Positions 3,151 through 16,668 of a stretch of DNA of 23,183 nucleotides are shown here, piece by piece; position 1 is the stretch's first letter; each line of letters opens with the position of its first letter. Below the pieces are notes generated by a model, which worked only from the letters and a program-made list of their open reading frames with translations, had not been told where the DNA came from and ran no database searches. A program made the position numbers and the translations under genes. Source of the DNA: a virus; the IMG/VR virus record IMGVR_UViG_3300042938_000602, positions 1 to 23,183 of that record. The stretch is one strand, 5' to 3'.

Positions 3151-3399
3151 ATGGCGATGAACAAATCATTTTTTGGCCTGCCGCTTGCAACTCTGCAAGA
3201 ATTGCAGGGCGACTTTACGGCTTGCCTCAAGGCAATAGCCGTTGCCGGCGCGTCGTATAGCATCGCAGGGCGCTCGTTTACTCGCGCTAATCTTGCCGAG
3301 GTCGCGCAGACGATAAAAGAGTTGCAAGCCGCTATTGACAACGCCAGCGGATCGCGTATAAGAAGGTTCACGCCGACGTTCCCAACACAGCGCCCATAA
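3151..3399 (+). CDS. gpW-like head-tail connector
   Basis: This 82-aa protein resembles the lambda gpW family, small proteins that join the head to the tail below the portal. The pattern is a helical N-terminus (TLQELQGDFTACLKAI), a short beta hairpin (GASYSIAGRSFTRANL), a second helix (EVAQTIKELQAAID) and a basic, disordered tail, as in gpW. Size also fits (lambda gpW is 68 aa). It lies directly before the portal gene, where lambda has W, and the stop and portal start overlap by one base (TAATG, 3397-3401). The start may be the ATG at 3151 or the ATG at 3157, both without a Shine-Dalgarno. Confidence 0.75.
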   Translation: MAMNKSFFGLPLATLQELQGDFTACLKAIAVAGASYSIAGRSFTRANLAEVAQTIKELQAAIDNASGSRIRRFTPTFPTQRP

Positions 3400-6511: not shown

Positions 6512-7165
6512 ATGGCTTATAATTTTACAGCGGCGAGTAGTCAGTATTTAAGCACATCATCCTCGCCCGTCGGCGTGGCTCCATTAACTTTAGCATGCTG
6601 GTTCTATCCAAATACAATCACGGCAAACTATATTTTGTTTCAAATTTCTAATGGAAACACTACGAATCGGCATGGTTTAGGAGCATTGGGTGGAGTGACG
6701 GGCGATCCGCTGCGATTGTATAGCGCGGGCACAGCAGGAGGGCCTGCATCAGGAGAAGTAGATTCCTCGACAGGGTTCACGGCATCAAATTGGCAACATG
6801 CGTGCGGAGTCGTCGCTAGTTCTAACAGCCGCACTGTTTATTTAAATGGCGGAAACAATGCAAATAATACAACTAATGTAAATACCGAAAATATCAACCA
6901 AATAAACATTGCAACTAGACCATTTAATAGCGTCAATGGACTTTTTCTCGATGGCCGACTCGCCGAAGTCGGCATCTGGAACGCCGCCCTCACCGCCGCC
7001 GAAATCGCCTCACTCGCCAAAGGCATGACCTGCGACAAGGTCCGCCCGCAGTCGCTCGTATTCTACGCCCCCCTCGTCCGCGACCTCATCGACCAAAAAG
7101 GCGGTCTCACCATCACCAACAACAACGGCGCAACCGTCGCCAACCATACAAGAATCTATGCCTAA
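6512..7165 (+). CDS. LamG/concanavalin-like virion protein
   Basis: This 217-aa protein looks like a laminin-G/LamG-3 jelly roll, a fold that usually binds sugars. Typical signs are FTAASSQYLS at the start, LTLACWFYPNT, SNWQHACGVV followed by SNSRTVYLNGG, and LDGRLAEVGIWNAALTAAEI near residues 148-167. The C-terminal tail (VRPQSLVFYAPLVRDLIDQKGG) is also found on phage LamG proteins in my experience. There is no signal peptide, so it is probably a particle surface protein that contacts host glycans. The last 65 codons (from about 6950) are much richer in G+C and in C-ending codons than the preceding hundred bases, suggesting a mosaic gene. An AGGAG about 10 nt before the ATG may act as a ribosome site. 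Confidence 0.82.
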   Translation: MAYNFTAASSQYLSTSSSPVGVAPLTLACWFYPNTITANYILFQISNGNTTNRHGLGALGGVTGDPLRLYSAGTAGGPASGEVDSSTGFTASNWQHACGVVASSNSRTVYLNGGNNANNTTNVNTENINQINIATRPFNSVNGLFLDGRLAEVGIWNAALTAAEIASLAKGMTCDKVRPQSLVFYAPLVRDLIDQKGGLTITNNNGATVANHTRIYA

Positions 7166-9888: not shown

Positions 9889-10842
9889 ATGGCACTCTCA
9901 TACACAACCATCCGCGCTGATATTGCGCAGGCCGTTTTTGAAGGTCTTTCCAACAAAAACAATTTGTTCATCGGCACAGAAGTAATGCCCGTGTTCTCCT
10001 CAGACGTTCGCTCCGGCGCATATCTGAAGTTGAATCTCGGCGACTCCGAAGCCCTCAACGACGACGTTCTCAAGATCGCCGCTGGTGCTGGATATCCCCG
10101 CACAAGCCGCCGGTTCACGAGCGACTCGTTCGACGCTATCGAATACGGTCTCGAGGAAGTTCTTCCTGACTCTAACCGCCGCGATCTCGATAGATTCTTC
10201 GACACCGAAGTGAACATCGCCGCGATGTTGCTCCGCCAAATTCAAGTCAGCCACGAGGCTCGCGTTGCTTCCGCAGCATTCGCCGCCAACGGCCTGACAG
10301 CGATCAGCGCATCGGCAGCATACACCGACGCGAATATCACATCCTTTGACGTTCCAGGAGATGTCGCCGCAGCAAAGCTCGAACTCGCCAAGTATGGCGT
10401 TCTTGCCAACACCTTGATCATGTCAATGCCTTTGTTTGAGCGCATCCGCCGCTCCGCTAAAGTGCAGAATCAGTTCTTCGGCATTGTTCCTTCCGATCAA
10501 AGCCGTCTCCTGAGCGAAGGCGAAGTTGCCGCCGCTGTCGGAGTTGACCGCGTTCTCGTAGGCCGCGCACCAAAGAACACCGCCGCTAAGGGTCAGACCT
10601 ATGCCGGTGGATTCATCTGGAGCAACACCTATATGGCCCTCGCCAACACGGTTGGTGGAGAGTTCTCCGGTGGTGGATTCGGTCGCACGATCGTATGGGC
10701 TGCTGATAGTCCCGTGCCTTTCGTTTCCGAAACCTATCGTGACGAGGCCCGCCGCGCAGACGTTCTCCGCGTTCGTCAGAACTCGGCTGAGAAAGTCATC
10801 GACGGTTCCAGTATCATCCGCATCACGACTGGATACGTTTAG
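9889..10842 (+). CDS. Major capsid protein (lambda gpE-like)
   Basis: This 317-aa protein is the expected HK97-fold shell subunit. Length is near lambda gpE (341 aa) and it follows the decoration gene. Motifs visible include an N-terminal helix (YTTIRADIAQAVFEGLSN), FDAIEYGLEEVLPDSNRRDL in the region of the extended loop, LANTLIMSMPLFERIRRS in the A-domain, and the C-terminal VSETYRDEARRADVLRVRQN that I associate with gpE-type capsids. No N-terminal delta domain of the HK97 kind is present, which agrees with a separate scaffold. A strong terminator lies 24 nt after the stop, so this is the last gene of the shell block. It is probably the most abundant protein of the region. Confidence 0.9.
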   Translation: MALSYTTIRADIAQAVFEGLSNKNNLFIGTEVMPVFSSDVRSGAYLKLNLGDSEALNDDVLKIAAGAGYPRTSRRFTSDSFDAIEYGLEEVLPDSNRRDLDRFFDTEVNIAAMLLRQIQVSHEARVASAAFAANGLTAISASAAYTDANITSFDVPGDVAAAKLELAKYGVLANTLIMSMPLFERIRRSAKVQNQFFGIVPSDQSRLLSEGEVAAAVGVDRVLVGRAPKNTAAKGQTYAGGFIWSNTYMALANTVGGEFSGGGFGRTIVWAADSPVPFVSETYRDEARRADVLRVRQNSAEKVIDGSSIIRITTGYV

Positions 10843-10865
10843 GATTCCCCGCAAGTAAGCATCGG

Positions 10866-10900
10866 AAAAGCCACCTCGAAAGGGGTGGCTTTTTTGTTTT
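10866..10900 (+). terminator. Rho-independent terminator after the capsid gene
   Basis: A 10-bp stem, AAAAGCCACC (10866-10875) with GGTGGCTTTT (10884-10893), is followed by a T tract. It separates the capsid gene from the glycosyltransferase cassette and would lower its expression relative to capsid. Confidence 0.88.
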
Positions 10901-10902
10901 TG

Positions 10903-10908
10903 TTGACA
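10903..10908 (+). promoter_or_regulatory. TTGACA element before the glycosyltransferase cassette
   Basis: TTGACA lies 18 nt before the ATG at 10927 and directly after the capsid terminator T-run. It is the only signal seen between terminator and cassette. No -10 box follows at a usable distance before the start codon. Confidence 0.4.
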
Positions 10909-10926
10909 TATACTTCAAGAGTAAAC

Positions 10927-12600
10927 ATGAACCAAAAAAAGAAGCTGGTCGCAGGGCTTATCTGCGGCAACGAAGAACCGCGCATCGAGCGATGCGTGCA
11001 ATCACTCAAACAGATATGTGACGAGATTGTTGTCGTCCGCGCAATCGGAGCACTCAAGCCGGATCGCACTCTCGAAATTGCAAAAGAGCTAGGCTGCCAC
11101 GTTGACGAATATCTCAACTCGCCGCTAGTCGCAGACTGGGAGCATCTCGACAACTTCGGCGAGGCTAGGAACAAAGCATTCGCCAAGGCTTACGAACTGG
11201 CAGGGAAAGACGGATGGGTCATGTGGGCCGATTGTGACGATATCATTGAGCCGCACATGGTCGCGCCAACATTGGCCGCGCTTGAAGAATGCCCGCCAGA
11301 GCAGGATTGGATTCTTACCGATTATGTAATTCCAGAACAAGGCAAACGCGCACCGAGGGAGCGTTTCTTTCGTTACCAGACGGCTTGGTGGCATCGTCCG
11401 GTGCATGAGAACGCGCAGCCTACGAAGGACGTGCAGGTATATATGCGGCGCGATCTTGAAATCATACACCAACCGCCGATAGGTCATCGCAACAGCAGCG
11501 AACGGAATCGCAGAATCTTGATGCACCAAGACCGCATGACTTCTCACTTCAAATTTTATTTGCACTACGAGAATTTCATTGCAGGCAACAAGGAACTCGC
11601 CGCGAAATACGGCTCAGAGGCACTAGCCTTGACCGATCTCGACGGCGTCAACCGCTACGAGATTCTTTTAAACTGCGCCAACATTACGAGCGGAGAGACA
11701 TCGCTCAACCTAGCACGCAAGGCCAAGGCACTTGAGCCGAAACGCCGCGAAGCCTACGGACTTGAGGCCAGCATTCTGCTTGACGATAAAAAATATCAAG
11801 ATGCGTTGAAAGTGGTGGAAGAAATGCTCGAAGTGCCGACGCCTAAATTCCCGCAATGGACGCACCGAAAAGAGTGGTATGGATGGAAGGGCGATCAACT
11901 CTACGCTTGGACGCTCCGCCTTCTCGGACGCAACGAAGACGCCGAAGAGATCGAACGCGAGACGCTAGCAGGATCAAGCAAGCCAAAAATCTCACTCGTC
12001 CACGCAACGCGAGGACGGCCCGTGGAGGCCGTGCAATGTATGACGCTATGGTTGTCACGCGCAACGCACCCAGAGCGCGTGGAACACATCTTTGCGGTCG
12101 ATCACGATGACGCCACGGCAGACATTCTAAAACGCTTTCGATCCGTGACGCAAAAAGAGGGTGGTTTTTCCGTCGGAGCTTGGAATCTCGGAGCCGCGAA
12201 AGCGACTGGTGATATTATCATTCAGCTTTCGGATGATTGGGAATGCCCGCCAGGGTGGGATGAGATGATCGAAAATCGTCTCGACATTTCAAAACCTCAA
12301 GTTCTGCGGATTTCGGACGGATATAGAAAAGACGAATTACTATGCATGGCGATCTTAACGTGTAAATATTATGAGCAAAATGGACTATTTAACCCAAGAT
12401 TCCGAAACGTCTACAGCGACACCGACTTCACCTTTCGTGCCGCGAAAAATGGGGCGATTGTTGATGCTCGTGACATTAACATCGTTCATCATCACCCGTT
12501 TTTTGAGGAGCGTCCGCTCGATGCGACATATCAGCGTGGCAACGATCCTGCGGAATATACGCGGGCAAAGGAAATCTTCGACGAACTCCACCCGAAATGA
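10927..12600 (+). CDS. Two-domain glycosyltransferase (GT2-TPR-GT2)
   Basis: This 557-aa protein appears to carry two family-2-like glycosyltransferase domains. The first (residues about 5-200) begins LVAGLICGNEEPRIERCVQS, has EARNKA and the acidic WADCDD at 100-105, a likely metal and nucleotide-sugar site. Residues about 215-305 look like tetratricopeptide-type helices (SEALALTD, ARKAKALEPKRREAYGLEA, YQDALKVVEEML). The second domain (from about residue 354) begins ISLVHATRGRPVEAV, has SDDW at 435-438 and a later SDTDF near 497. A GTG at 10885 would extend the gene into the terminator stem, so the ATG at 10927 is chosen. Targets may be a virion protein, host surface glycan or DNA base; the sequence does not say which. 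Confidence 0.8.
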   Translation: MNQKKKLVAGLICGNEEPRIERCVQSLKQICDEIVVVRAIGALKPDRTLEIAKELGCHVDEYLNSPLVADWEHLDNFGEARNKAFAKAYELAGKDGWVMWADCDDIIEPHMVAPTLAALEECPPEQDWILTDYVIPEQGKRAPRERFFRYQTAWWHRPVHENAQPTKDVQVYMRRDLEIIHQPPIGHRNSSERNRRILMHQDRMTSHFKFYLHYENFIAGNKELAAKYGSEALALTDLDGVNRYEILLNCANITSGETSLNLARKAKALEPKRREAYGLEASILLDDKKYQDALKVVEEMLEVPTPKFPQWTHRKEWYGWKGDQLYAWTLRLLGRNEDAEEIERETLAGSSKPKISLVHATRGRPVEAVQCMTLWLSRATHPERVEHIFAVDHDDATADILKRFRSVTQKEGGFSVGAWNLGAAKATGDIIIQLSDDWECPPGWDEMIENRLDISKPQVLRISDGYRKDELLCMAILTCKYYEQNGLFNPRFRNVYSDTDFTFRAAKNGAIVDARDINIVHHHPFFEERPLDATYQRGNDPAEYTRAKEIFDELHPK

Positions 12601-12818
12601 ATAACCGACCAACACCAGATACAGATCAAAGGGCAGTTCCGCACATTGGGTTTTATTCATGCGCAACCGTTCCAGCTGAATTTGCGCGAAAACTTGAACG
12701 CGAGCGCGACGAGGCGCGGGATGCGTTGATGAAAATTGAAGATTTATTTATTGATGGGACTATCCCATCAAAATTGATGGGACAGATATTTGCGCAGACA
12801 AAGAAAACATGGGCCTAA
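12597..12818 (+). CDS. Small phage protein with coiled coil
   Basis: This 73-aa protein starts by ATGA overlap with the glycosyltransferase stop. After a polar N-terminus (NNRPTPDTDQRAVPHIGFYS) it has a charged helix (FARKLERERDEARDALMKIE, residues about 29-48) of the type common in small phage proteins. I recognise the general pattern (a short acidic leader, then ARKLERERDEA) from many phages, without a known function. It sits inside the glycosyltransferase cassette and the next ORF starts within or just after its end. Confidence 0.65.
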   Translation: MNNRPTPDTDQRAVPHIGFYSCATVPAEFARKLERERDEARDALMKIEDLFIDGTIPSKLMGQIFAQTKKTWA

Positions 12819-12832
12819 TTGGAAAAAACAAA

Positions 12833-13081
12833 ATGACAAACGAACAAATCAATATCGCAATCGCGAAATCGTGCGGGTGGGATCTTCTAGACATTCCCGA
12901 CTACTGCAATGACCTCAACGCGATGCACGAGGCGGAAAATTCAATACCTCATCCGTCTTATTTCTACCAATCCAATTTAACAGAATTATGCGGAGGAGAA
13001 AACCGAATCTACCGCGCAACCGCATCTCAACGCGCAGAGGCGTTTCTGCGAACACTCGGAAAATGGGAGGGCGCGAAATGA
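12833..13081 (+). CDS. ABA-sandwich-like small phage protein
   Basis: This 82-aa protein has features of the phage ABA sandwich domain family: MTNEQINIAIAKSCGW at the N-terminus, IPDYCNDLNAMHEAEN in the middle, and a C-terminal ATASQRAEAFLRTLGKWE. These small proteins are common in phages; their function is not established. The ATG at 12833 matches the usual family start. An in-frame ATG at 12809 would add eight residues and overlap the previous gene. The stop overlaps the next start (ATGA, 13078-13081). Within the cassette it may be a passenger rather than a glycan gene. Confidence 0.7.
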   Translation: MTNEQINIAIAKSCGWDLLDIPDYCNDLNAMHEAENSIPHPSYFYQSNLTELCGGENRIYRATASQRAEAFLRTLGKWEGAK

Positions 13082-13662
13082 ATAAGGAAGTCACTCTCAT
13101 CGTCTTTGAAGGCTTAAGGTCTAGGCACGAACAAAGCGGAAAATTATTTAAACACCTTTGCGGCTTGGGTGGATTCGGCGACGCCGTTTATATCGCCGAA
13201 GACTGCACCTATCAACAAGCGATGCACTGGGAACTAGGCCGCTTCGCGGACTATTTCGACACTTCGCACGCGCTCATCTGCACGCATGACGGCTTCATTG
13301 CAAATCCGCACTTGTGGCAGGATTCTTGGCTTGAATACGATATGCTAGGTGCGCCGTGGCCTGCGTCTTGGAACGTAGGGCATCGCGTCGGAAATACTGG
13401 CTTCACGCTCCAGAGCCAGAAATTCTTGCAAATGGCAGCAAAGGCCGAGCCGCTCTGGAAGGGCGAGGCTGGGGATGTTTTTTTGTGCAGGACAATGGAG
13501 CAAGGATTCCGCGACAATGGCATCAAATACGCGCCGGTGAGCGTAGCGGCGGCGTTCTCTTGGGAGCATTACGTTGAGGAAAACACGGCAGGGCCGGATC
13601 GTTCCTTCGGATTCCACGGGTGGGTGGCAGGGAAAACGCGAGAACAATACTACACGTTTTGA
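13078..13662 (+). CDS. DUF5672-type glycosyltransferase-like protein
   Basis: This 194-aa protein resembles DUF5672, a family found in glycan clusters and predicted to be glycosyltransferase-like. Landmarks are VTLIVFEGLRS at the start, CTHDGFIANPHLWQDSWLEY near residues 61-80, MLGAPWPASW, VGNTGFTLQSQKFL, and a C-terminal FGFHGW. The acidic pair usually needed by such enzymes may be in HDGF, but no standard DxD triplet is evident. It starts by ATGA overlap on the preceding ORF, and a longer GTG-type start would run through that gene. Its partners on both sides are glycosyltransferases, so a role in the same glycan reaction chain is inferred. Confidence 0.76.
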   Translation: MNKEVTLIVFEGLRSRHEQSGKLFKHLCGLGGFGDAVYIAEDCTYQQAMHWELGRFADYFDTSHALICTHDGFIANPHLWQDSWLEYDMLGAPWPASWNVGHRVGNTGFTLQSQKFLQMAAKAEPLWKGEAGDVFLCRTMEQGFRDNGIKYAPVSVAAAFSWEHYVEENTAGPDRSFGFHGWVAGKTREQYYTF

Positions 13663-14321
13663 ACATTCTCATCGTTTATCACTTGAGGCTCGGAGACATC
13701 GCACGTTGCTTACCGATAGCGAAGCATTTCGCGGATCAGGGACATAATGTGATGTTTGAATGCCTGCCCGAATATCACGGTCTTTTCGCGATGGTCGATT
13801 ACTGCAAGCCGCTTTACCCACAAAACGACCACAGCGGCTTTCATCGCATCATCAACTTGCAAATATGGCCGGACTTGCACGAAGATTTTTGCGCGAGTCC
13901 GCTAGGCTGGAGTGATTACGTTTACGGACTTTTCCCCGAAGGCAAGGACATCGACAGGCAGATTGTTCTCAACTCTCCTGCAATAGTCACACCGCCAGAA
14001 CTCAAGTCATGGGTTCTTTGTTTTCCGACTGGATACAGCCAGGATAAAAAGATCGACGTGCGGGACGTCATTACGGTCGCGCACCAAGTCGCAAACGGCA
14101 GGCCCGTGCTTTGCGCTGGGAAGGCTGCTCACGGCATGGCTGAGTTTGAAAGCATAGAATATATGTGCGCGTACATCCGAGACGCTAACGAGGTTGTCAC
14201 GATCAATACCAGCACAAGCATTCTTGCATCGGCACTTCGCAAAAGCTGGGTTCACATTTCAGATAGTCCGAAGCACGACTTCACGCATCCGAACCAGAGA
14301 CGTGTAGAGCGCAAGTTTTGA
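13659..14321 (+). CDS. Glycosyltransferase, heptosyltransferase-like (GT9/GT-B type)
   Basis: This 220-aa protein starts at a TTG at 13659 that overlaps the previous stop (TTGA). Read from there, it opens MNILIVYHLRLGDIARCLPI, close to the first strand and loop of family-9 (heptosyltransferase) enzymes, where RLGD is typical. The C-terminal part has TINTSTSILASALRKSW and HISDSPKHDF, like the nucleotide-sugar end of a GT-B fold (NTSTSH...). At 220 aa it is shorter than bacterial heptosyltransferases (about 320-350 aa), so it may be reduced. Starts further upstream would lie within the preceding gene. It closes the cassette, and its stop TGA lies within the next TTGACG element. Confidence 0.66.
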   Translation: MNILIVYHLRLGDIARCLPIAKHFADQGHNVMFECLPEYHGLFAMVDYCKPLYPQNDHSGFHRIINLQIWPDLHEDFCASPLGWSDYVYGLFPEGKDIDRQIVLNSPAIVTPPELKSWVLCFPTGYSQDKKIDVRDVITVAHQVANGRPVLCAGKAAHGMAEFESIEYMCAYIRDANEVVTINTSTSILASALRKSWVHISDSPKHDFTHPNQRRVERKF

Positions 14322-14328: not shown

Positions 14329-14341
14329 CCCACTTTGTGGG
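14329..14341 (+). repeat. Hairpin abutting a start codon
   Basis: CCCAC (14329-14333), loop TTT, and GTGGG (14337-14341) form a perfect 5-bp hairpin that ends one base before the ATG at 14343. It would place the start at the foot of a stem and could tune initiation of the connector gene. Confidence 0.45.
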
Positions 14342-14342
14342 A

Positions 14343-14645
14343 ATGCTCGACATATTTACAAACGATCTAGCTGCTATGCTAGACGATCTGCCGCTCGCGG
14401 TCACATTTGGCGAGCGTAATTTTCTCGCGAACCGCACAGCATACCGGCGCGACAACAGCCTAGCGGACGGCGGATTCATGGATTCCGCATCGATGACTAT
14501 CACGGCGGTCTATGACGCATTCGTTCAGACCATTTCTCTCGGTGACGTGCTTGTCATCGGTGGCAGACGGTTTCGCGTTACCTCAGCCGAGCTTTCCCAA
14601 GACGCTGTCAGCGTCGATTTCACGCTTGAGGACATAAATAAATGA
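14343..14645 (+). CDS. Head-tail joining protein (gpFII-like)
   Basis: This 100-aa protein fits a connector that caps the filled head and accepts the tail. Position is diagnostic: it follows the head genes (and the inserted cassette) and is the last small protein before fibre and tail genes, where lambda has FII (117 aa). The sequence has a helical N-terminus (DIFTNDLAAMLDDLPLAVTF) and a beta-rich C-terminus (SLGDVLVIGGRRFRVTSAEL, then VDFTLEDIN), as in gpFII-type proteins. A GTG at 14337 lies inside the hairpin stem, so the ATG at 14343 is preferred. The end overlaps the next gene (ATGA, 14642-14645). Confidence 0.65.
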   Translation: MLDIFTNDLAAMLDDLPLAVTFGERNFLANRTAYRRDNSLADGGFMDSASMTITAVYDAFVQTISLGDVLVIGGRRFRVTSAELSQDAVSVDFTLEDINK

Positions 14646-15817
14646 GCATTTTCTTTCCCGAAGACGAAGGACGCGAAGTTCCGAACGTCGATAACCAGCC
14701 GATCCTTCGCACCGAAATCATTGCAGGCGCAGCGGGGCCGACCGGATCGCAGGGGCCAGCTGGGCCAGCGGGTCCGGGTGTAGTCACGGGGGGCTTCACG
14801 GGGCAAGTTCTCGCGAAGAAAACAAACGCGGACTATGACACGGAATGGGTCACAGGAGGAGGCGGCGGATCTGCAATTTGGGGCGGCATCGCCGGCACGC
14901 TTTCAAACCAAACCGATCTTCAAACGGTTCTCGATGCAAAGGCGCTCAAAATAACGGCGATCACAGCAGGCACAGGGCTGACAGGCGGCGGCGACTTCTC
15001 CGCATCGCGCACAATCTCGATGCTTGCGGACGTTCCTGCGGACTCACTAAATTTTAACGTAGCGGCAACCGAAACGGAAGCCATAGGAAAGATGTTCTGG
15101 AACTCTACCGAAGGCGCGCCGCAAGTCGGGCTTGCAGGCGGTAACGTGCAATTGCAAATGGGATCAATGCTTGTGGCCTATGTTCGCAACGCAGAGGCAA
15201 CAACGCTAAATAAGGGTGAGGTTGTTTATTTATTCGGAGCAACAGGCAACCGCGCAAGCGTCAAGCGAGCATCCAACGCAGCGGATTCCAGCTCGTCAAA
15301 AACTATCGGCCTTGTTGCCGAAAGCATCGGCGCAAACCAAAATGGATTTATTATTACGCAAGGCGTTCTTGACGGCCTTTCGCTAGGTTCGCCATTCGTG
15401 GACGGAGATTCGGTCTACCTTGGAAACGCCGCAGGAACATTTACGCGAGTCAAACCGACGCAGCCCGATCACATTGTTTTCATTGGAGTTGTCGAACGTG
15501 CGAATGCTGGCAACGGCCAGCTTTACATCAGACCGCAAAACGGATTTGAGCTTGACGAGTTGCACGACGTTCTTATCACTTCGCCACAAAACAACCAAAC
15601 GATTCTCTGGAACTCAGCGATCACCTTGTGGGTCAACTCGACGCTCACCGTCGGAACGATCAGCGGACTCTCAACGGATCTCAGCGGAAAGGTCGCATCG
15701 GTAACAACTGGCATCACGGGCGCAACGCAACTTACCAACATGATGCAGATCACGGCGGCGGGTTATAGCGCGATCACTTCGCCAGCCGCAAACACGCTCT
15801 ATATTATTGTCGGATGA
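14642..15817 (+). CDS. Tail fibre-type protein with collagen-like repeat
   Basis: This 391-aa protein is probably a particle fibre or tip adhesin. Residues 29-46 are a short collagen-like Gly-X-Y run (GAAGPTGSQGPAGPAGPG). Then comes a glycine-rich hinge (VTGGGGGS), a fibre-stalk pattern (TDLQTVLDAK, then TAGTGLTGGGDFSASRTISM) and a conserved middle domain (VAYVRNAEATTLNKGEVVYL, FIGVVERANAGNGQLYIRPQ) that I know from many phage fibres. Trimeric assembly is expected for such stalks. It sits between connector and tail terminator genes, not after the tape measure where fibre genes usually lie. The start overlaps the connector stop and its own stop overlaps the repeat protein gene. Confidence 0.76.
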   Translation: MSIFFPEDEGREVPNVDNQPILRTEIIAGAAGPTGSQGPAGPAGPGVVTGGFTGQVLAKKTNADYDTEWVTGGGGGSAIWGGIAGTLSNQTDLQTVLDAKALKITAITAGTGLTGGGDFSASRTISMLADVPADSLNFNVAATETEAIGKMFWNSTEGAPQVGLAGGNVQLQMGSMLVAYVRNAEATTLNKGEVVYLFGATGNRASVKRASNAADSSSSKTIGLVAESIGANQNGFIITQGVLDGLSLGSPFVDGDSVYLGNAAGTFTRVKPTQPDHIVFIGVVERANAGNGQLYIRPQNGFELDELHDVLITSPQNNQTILWNSAITLWVNSTLTVGTISGLSTDLSGKVASVTTGITGATQLTNMMQITAAGYSAITSPAANTLYIIVG

Positions 15818-16668
15818 TCTTAACCGATTCCAGTTCTGCTCGTGTTCAATCTTCGGTTGTCACGTCGATTGTAGGCGTATCAGCTTCGTTTTTGCAATTT
15901 ATGCAGTATGCCGCATTGACCGTTTCAAGGGCGATTTCTGGCACTATCGGACTTGTAAAAAATGGCGCGGCACAACTCACGCTTTCCGGAACTTGCACCT
16001 ACACAGGAGCAACGCAAATCAATGCGGGAACGCTTTCAATAACGGGCGCATCAACGCTCAACGGCGTCATTAGCGGAGCGGGGACTCTTTCAAAAAGCGG
16101 ATTATTGGCGGTCACGCTTGGTGGAAATAACACTTATTCAGGCGGAACAAACTACACTTCAGCTGGGGCTGCGGGAACAATCACCTTTTCATCGGGGAAT
16201 GTTTTTGGGACGGGGAATGTGACCTGTTCCGGCCCGTGCCAAATCATTACCAGCAGCTCTGTGACTATTCCAAATAACTTTGCGATAAATAGCTCAACAC
16301 TGCAATTTCGAACAACTGGTGCGCCAACTTACACAATTTCTGGAAACATTTCGGGGGCGGGCAATGTAAATAAAACAGGCAACGGGACTGTTGTTTTAAG
16401 CGGAACTCTGACTTATACGGGATCGACAACGATCACGGCTGGAATACTTCGCGCAACAAAAACAAATGGAGCATCAACGGCAACGGCATCCTTTCCGATT
16501 CAAGGACTCGCCCTTTCGGTCTCATTTAACGTTGCGCCAACGGCAGGCATGACATTCCGATTTTTCGCGGGCTCAACCGTCAGCACCTACGCATCCGTCA
16601 CGTTGGTCGGTGCTCCAGGGCGAACAGGGACATACAACTCGGCAAACTCTACGCTTACAATAGCATGA
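15814..16668 (+). CDS. Autotransporter-repeat (PATR) adhesin-like phage protein
   Basis: This 284-aa protein is made largely of parallel beta-helix repeats of the autotransporter-associated type. Three copies are visible: residues about 42-76 (NGAAQLTLSGTCTYTGATQI followed by NAGTLSI), about 84-118 (GVISGAGTLSKSG, then LGGNNTYSGGT), and about 177-213 (GNISGAGNVNKTGNGTVVLS, then LTYTGSTTITAG). There is no signal peptide and no C-terminal outer-membrane barrel, so it is not a secreted autotransporter; it is probably a virion spike, fibre tip or surface protein. The C-terminal 60 residues form another beta module. The repeat family is most familiar in bacterial autotransporter-like proteins. It is coupled to the fibre gene upstream by ATGA. 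Confidence 0.78.
   Translation: MILTDSSSARVQSSVVTSIVGVSASFLQFMQYAALTVSRAISGTIGLVKNGAAQLTLSGTCTYTGATQINAGTLSITGASTLNGVISGAGTLSKSGLLAVTLGGNNTYSGGTNYTSAGAAGTITFSSGNVFGTGNVTCSGPCQIITSSSVTIPNNFAINSSTLQFRTTGAPTYTISGNISGAGNVNKTGNGTVVLSGTLTYTGSTTITAGILRATKTNGASTATASFPIQGLALSVSFNVAPTAGMTFRFFAGSTVSTYASVTLVGAPGRTGTYNSANSTLTIA

Follow-up and report, generated by a model that had tools for sequence, protein, structure and literature searches.

A glycosyltransferase cassette fixed behind the major capsid gene of a phage lineage, probably serving glycosylation of its own virion proteins

Introduction

What is the role of three glycosyltransferase-type genes lodged between the capsid gene and the connector gene of a phage, and what would they glycosylate? 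The question is raised by a 23.2 kb virus record (hereafter the window, i.e., the whole stretch of DNA analyzed), in which the genes run in the order terminase, portal, cement-like protein, major capsid protein (MCP), cassette, connector-like gene, and tail genes. A first reading of this DNA, made from the sequence alone, had described five coupled genes inserted at this site and had leaned toward virion proteins as targets, with host glycans and phage DNA as alternatives. Here we follow up that sequence-only reading across the relatives of the phage.

Results and Discussion

Gene order and composition of the cassette

As first described, five ORFs at 10927–14321 lie between the MCP gene and a connector-like gene, the latter being the constant downstream neighbor of the cassette. 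The features of the locus are as follows:

9889–10842, + strand: MCP, the constant upstream neighbor (PHROG phrog_1005 major head protein, 8.3e-27)
10863–10896, + strand: intrinsic terminator in the gap between MCP and cassette (terminator scan)
10903–10908, + strand: TTGACA element, 18 nt upstream of the GT2 start
10927–12600, + strand: GT2-TPR-GT2 glycosyltransferase, 557 aa, the constant cassette enzyme (PF00535, 1.7e-17)
12597–12818, + strand: orfB, small accessory ORF in a hypervariable slot, outside the core and missing from many complete relatives
12833–13081, + strand: orfC, a further small accessory ORF of this hypervariable slot (could also start at 12809; only 4 loci have a homologue)
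13078–13662, + strand: DUF5672 protein, putative glycosyltransferase of the type A module (PF18922, 2.5e-15)
13659–14321, + strand: GT9-fold (heptosyltransferase-like) protein, exchangeable module, TTG start (structure, Foldseek, RLGD motif)
14337–14645, + strand: head-closure/connector-like gene that closes the cassette (Pfam Phage_attach E=0.0018 and PHROG Hc1 E=0.023, both weak)

Translational coupling is seen at three junctions, where the GT2 stop overlaps the orfB ATG (12597–12600), the orfC stop overlaps the DUF5672 ATG (13078–13081), and the DUF5672 stop overlaps the GT9-like TTG (13659–13662). The description of five coupled genes holds to that extent, but only three of the five are constant in close relatives. 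The orfB/orfC pair is a variable insertion that is replaced, lengthened, or missing in these phages; orfC is not present in most complete cassettes, and in the shortest ones, which have no small ORFs, GT2 runs straight into DUF5672 with an overlap of stop and start. Because both small ORFs are variable, a functional unit of five genes was rejected. No Rfam elements were found in the window.

Linkage to the capsid gene and conservation across the lineage

Wherever a distinct MCP context extends 300 nt or more past MCP (122 of 122 cases), the GT2 gene stands directly behind MCP, and MCP stands in front of GT2 in each of the 116 GT2 contexts with enough upstream sequence. These contexts include MCP-based searches that were not conditioned on GT2, with MCP identity down to ~70%. 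The linkage rejects a private insertion in one phage: the cassette is fixed throughout the lineage and no oddity of a single phage. Its position between MCP and connector, as first read, is real, but what had been called an insertion is fixed lineage-wide.

All copies of the three enzymes are intact (GT2 in 90/90 loci, DUF5672 in 84/84, and GT9-like in 76/76), and their median dN/dS values are 0.049, 0.037, and 0.040, respectively, vs. 0.072 for MCP. These ratios, estimated from sequence comparison, point to strong purifying selection on the cassette genes, and decay or junk was rejected on the basis of the intact copies and of dN/dS values of 0.04–0.05.

The lineage has no known cultured member; a tblastn search with MCP against 50,697 phage records gave no match, and a scan of prokaryotic genomes with GT2 found no relative. 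Among cultured phages, the highest terminase score in our search was that of the Verrucomicrobia phage P8625 (25% identity), which has small hypothetical genes directly behind its coat gene and no annotated glycosyltransferase, and a TerL scan of prokaryotic genomes returned one Verrucomicrobia MAG contig (37%). This terminase affinity tentatively suggests Verrucomicrobiota as hosts of the lineage. The two ends of one relative's contig share a 3.75 kb overlap that is only 91% identical; the contig spans about one full genome but, owing to this divergence, is probably no clean circle.

The terminator and the TTGACA element

Of 102 distinct intergenic sequences behind MCP, 98 have an intrinsic terminator; its stem comes in 21 different versions, and among 1020 shuffled controls only 4 had one. 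The capsid terminator behind which the cassette had been placed is therefore real and conserved. Downstream of it, TTGACA occurs 17–19 nt from the GT2 ATG in 85 of the 102 distinct intergenic regions (TTGAC in 95/102), and insertions in some relatives, e.g., of a Mom gene, fall exactly between the terminator and this element. The cassette had been described as flanked by two TTGACA-like elements. The one at 10903 is indeed conserved before GT2, but a promoter scan recognized no sigma-70 promoter there, finding no -10 partner, and the TTGAC-N-ATG motif class is near chance across the whole window; a sigma-70 promoter was rejected on both counts. The second element is only TTGACG and overlaps the GT9 stop codon.

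Transcription together with late genes had been offered as an argument for virion targets. This argument is weak because the conserved terminator lies between the capsid gene and the cassette.

The constant enzyme GT2-TPR-GT2

The three family assignments were borne out, by Pfam for the GT2 and DUF5672 proteins and by structure for the GT9-like protein. The first enzyme scores 64.3 bits against PF00535 (cut-off 23.3), and in relatives both of its halves match this family separately. The DxD-type motifs of both GT2 domains are invariant, DxD and SDD being kept in all of 16 diverse homologues. Among solved structures, profile comparison puts GmaR (8e-8) and SunS (4e-5) nearest, with designed TPR proteins next; fold comparison puts SunS (8.9e-16) and ThuS (8.2e-14) first, then two-domain polymerases and GalNAc-T2. 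The SunS and ThuS structures carry the name of glycocin S-glycosyltransferases, and GmaR modifies flagellin. The cassette enzyme resembles the GmaR/SunS type in an N-terminal GT2 domain with a DxD-type motif, a shared HE motif, and helical repeats that follow, but differs in having an extra C-terminal GT2 domain. Membership in the SunS family itself was rejected, the enzyme lying far below the equivalog cut-off of the SunS peptide S-glycosyltransferase model TIGR04195 (16.6 vs. 350 bits). In FlmG, the glycosyltransferase domain without the TPR domain fails to restore flagellin modification (PMC7591256).

The GT9-fold protein

No Pfam family matches the GT9-like protein at E<=1, and PDB profile searches with it and with the DUF5672 protein gave chance hits only. 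Its AlphaFold model (pLDDT 92) nevertheless upholds the earlier GT9-like call, with Foldseek matches to GT9 3tov (3.4e-6), TibC (5.1e-6), and WaaC (1.8e-5), so that the assignment of the third enzyme to the GT9 fold is backed by a predicted structure. Its RLGD motif is invariant, and the N-terminal "GD" motif is present with Asp13, which we take to be the catalytic base by analogy with WaaC. The sequence-only reading had named a lack of active-site residues among its possible refutations; the catalytic motifs are intact and invariant (DCDD, SDD, and the GT9 "GD" Asp13). Compared with TibC and the GT9 heptosyltransferases, with which it shares fold and N-terminal motif, the cassette protein is shorter (220 aa vs. 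~300–390 aa) and only 10–16% identical. TibC heptosylates autotransporter proteins (PMC4358343).

Module exchange behind the constant GT2

Among 78 complete cassettes, 50 carry the type A module of the window (DUF5672 and GT9-like), and 25 carry a type C module composed of a GT2-methyltransferase fusion and a GT32-like protein, one of them with Mom upstream; the GT32-like label is a putative one, drawn from a motif and sub-threshold Pfam scores. A type B module (Methyltransf_23 and GT9-like) is present in L075 and, with an extra ORF, in L192, where a sulfotransferase was considered and rejected, as a PRSG motif was seen and family support was not found. In L189, GT2 has a C-terminal extension, and behind it come an FkbM methyltransferase and then a GT2-like and a GT9-like protein.

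The pair L074 and L075 illustrates the exchange. Their DNA is 92.9% identical through MCP and GT2 (98% between the MCPs and 94% between the GT2s), similarity ends where GT2 ends, and it resumes (89%) 19 nt upstream of the connector gene. In this pair, type C and type B modules have been cleanly exchanged on a shared backbone. A constant GT2 with interchangeable modules is as expected for enzymes that act in series on one product.

What the cassette may glycosylate

We consider the cassette to be probably a phage-encoded unit that glycosylates a major protein of the phage's own virion; the likeliest acceptors are the capsid protein and other abundant proteins of the shell or tail. The analysis establishes which genes are present, how they are linked and conserved, that their motifs are intact, what fold they have, and that modules are exchanged. 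A virion-protein target, in particular, is favored by the MCP linkage, the soluble enzymes, the affinities to protein glycosyltransferases, and the lack of a hydroxymethyl-base pathway in relatives, which together make virion glycosylation, favored in the earlier reading, the best supported explanation even with the co-transcription argument weakened. Most of the solved structures nearest to the cassette enzymes are glycosyltransferases that act on proteins or peptides (GmaR, SunS, ThuS, and TibC, the last alongside GT9/WaaC). No transmembrane segment was found in any cassette enzyme (maximum 19-residue hydropathy 1.29 across all cassette proteins), and no hydroxymethylase, TET, or 5hmU kinase was found among the Pfam hits for selected ORFs of near-complete relatives. 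Several points count against a virion target: the MCP linkage could stem from block inheritance instead of target choice, the modeled GT9 fold is common to LPS heptosyltransferases (WaaC), DNA-modification genes occur in some relatives (see below), and the conserved terminator separates transcription of the cassette from that of MCP.

The activity, acceptor, sugars, and benefit that we infer would fit together as follows. The TPR segment of GT2-TPR-GT2 would hold the protein acceptor, and the enzyme would serve as initiator, attaching and extending the first sugars in the cytoplasm from host nucleotide sugars. The downstream module would then extend or cap the glycan, by means of DUF5672 and the GT9-fold protein here and of methyltransferases and other glycosyltransferases in relatives. 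A module swap behind constant GT2 and MCP would thus give the particle a different outermost sugar and hence another surface identity.

It is also conceivable, but unlikely, that the enzymes modify the host surface late in infection, changing lipopolysaccharide, S-layer, or another surface glycan, whether to block superinfection or to keep released particles off debris. The fold proximity of the GT9 protein to the LPS heptosyltransferases WaaC and heptosyltransferase II would fit such a role, and serotype-converting phages also have interchangeable glycosyltransferase modules. Gtr-type seroconversion, however, involves a membrane-bound glucosyltransferase and a flippase, neither of which was found, and no cassette protein has a hydrophobic segment; moreover, no integrase appears among the Pfam hits of relatives, the constant enzyme is closest to peptide/protein glycosyltransferases, and absolute linkage to MCP would not be expected.

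Glycosylation of phage DNA, i.e., sugars added to a modified base as a defense against restriction, deserves consideration since genes for a TAGT-type DNA glycosyltransferase or for Mom are present in some of the relatives, and Mom can occupy the slot just upstream of GT2; judging by these genes, DNA modification is probably found in the lineage. As the function of the cassette we regard it as very improbable, given its late/structural position, the lack of a base hydroxymethylase, TET dioxygenase, or 5hmU kinase in near-complete relatives, and the fact that dedicated DNA glycosyltransferases, where present, belong to another family and are encoded elsewhere in the genome. The lowest probability is given to an acceptor in the variable virion fiber (collagen-like or PATR-repeat proteins, 14642–16668) instead of the shell, even though TibC, a fold neighbor of the third enzyme, glycosylates autotransporter passengers, PATR repeats are present at 15814–16668, and, among complete contigs, the slot genes occur in most type A but few type C phages. 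Three phages with complete type A cassettes (L030, L044, and L115) have only 6 nt between the connector and the next gene and no fiber there, so that the collagen-like/PATR genes cannot be the obligatory target, and GT2 is constant even without fiber genes.

Comparison with known systems

Virion-protein glycosylation by phage enzymes has a precedent in mycobacteriophages. According to the statements citing Freeman et al. (2023) in PMC12363180, PMC12619734, and PMC11256854, the phages Che8, Corndog, and Myrna are reported to have glycosylated proteins. Corndog (cluster O) encodes an O-methyltransferase, two glycosyltransferases, and a GlcNAc-transferase-like gene among its structural genes, between portal and protease (PMC4351075). 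The lineage studied here likewise has glycosyltransferase genes kept within the structural region, but between MCP and connector, with a linkage fixed lineage-wide and with modules exchanged, and here the glycans are predicted from genes. No mycobacteriophage was found by tblastn with the GT2, DUF5672, GT9-like, and GT2-MT proteins. The cassette would work like the mycobacteriophage systems but is a separate assembly of enzymes. In our best reading, it is a lineage-wide modular variant of the virion glycosylation known in mycobacteriophages.

A parallel in logic only is provided by the unrelated eukaryotic giant virus PBCV-1 (chlorovirus), in which the MCP glycan is the product of soluble virus-encoded glycosyltransferases (A064R), of which one has a predicted methyltransferase domain, and in which variants of this glycan are antigenic variants (PMC5408694). 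Among phages, the unrelated ctKR88 (MW202524) has a GT2-TPR protein and two further glycosyltransferases behind its own MCP. The similarity of this capsid-adjacent three-glycosyltransferase cassette lies in its GT2-TPR protein, at 26% identity across roughly half of the query; it differs in an MCP that is not detectably homologous and in other partner families (GT4-like by inspection). In other phages, DUF5672 adjoins a terminase-like gene. Comparable arrangements have therefore arisen more than once.

Possible significance of the modular cassette

In the portions of the open-licence literature covered here, demonstrated phage virion glycosylation is confined to mycobacteriophages and is discussed in terms of animal antibodies. 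If our reading is true, particle glycosylation would be more general and would have another selective cause, as suggested by a strongly conserved, lineage-wide modular cassette in apparently free-living phages and by the independent parallel in ctKR88. We tentatively propose, as a possibility that falls somewhat short of an even chance, that in this aquatic lineage a constant capsid-linked initiator with exchangeable modules allows particle "serotypes" to be switched by recombination on an unchanged capsid, much as bacteria exchange O-antigens. Selection would then come from recognition of particles in the environment, for example by grazers or host-derived binding molecules, and not animal immunity. 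The swapped-module pair described above would offer the same capsid with a different predicted glycan.

Glycosyltransferase cassette and comparable gene groups

Within the otherwise highly conserved operon of the cassette, window positions 12597-13081 form a hypervariable small-ORF slot, and a sequence like that of its orfB also turns up on a Verrucomicrobia contig (L201), where it lies in an early region. In most intergenic regions (window 10903-10929 and relatives), the GT2 start codon is conserved at 17-19 nt after a TTGACA element, for which no -10 partner is recognisable there. TTGACA also lies ahead of each of the starts at 3151, 8648 and 17332 in the window.

Phage ctKR88 (MW202524.1) carries a three-glycosyltransferase cassette; its MCP is unrelated and the two cassettes are independent:

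L202:1656-7307, ctKR88 cassette, immediately 3' of MCP

In three contigs of another phage type (L249, L250 and L251; one of 67 kb), DUF5672 adjoins a terminase-like gene; behind it come a methyltransferase-like gene and a GT9-like gene on the opposite strand.

Accessory genes in the window and its relatives

Mom-family DNA-modification genes and TET-associated glycosyltransferase (TAGT) homologues are present in relatives, the latter in two; the ORFs scanned gave no match to the TET dioxygenase family:

L190:11038-11661, Mom-family, inserted between capsid terminator and GT2 unit
L125:15116-15793, Mom-family
L124:16150-16869 (-), TAGT homologue
L127:6238-7065 (-), TAGT homologue

Two further features belong to the window:

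6512-7165, protein with a lectin domain of Laminin-G/concanavalin type, encoded in the portal-protease interval
14642-16668, collagen-like Gly-X-Y protein and PATR (autotransporter-repeat) protein, inserted at the connector/tail gene boundary

Only a few relatives have such a lectin domain protein, and the slot at 14642-16668 is occupied in most type A phages (DUF5672 and GT9-like genes behind GT2) and vacant in most type C phages (GT2-methyltransferase fusion and GT32-like genes).
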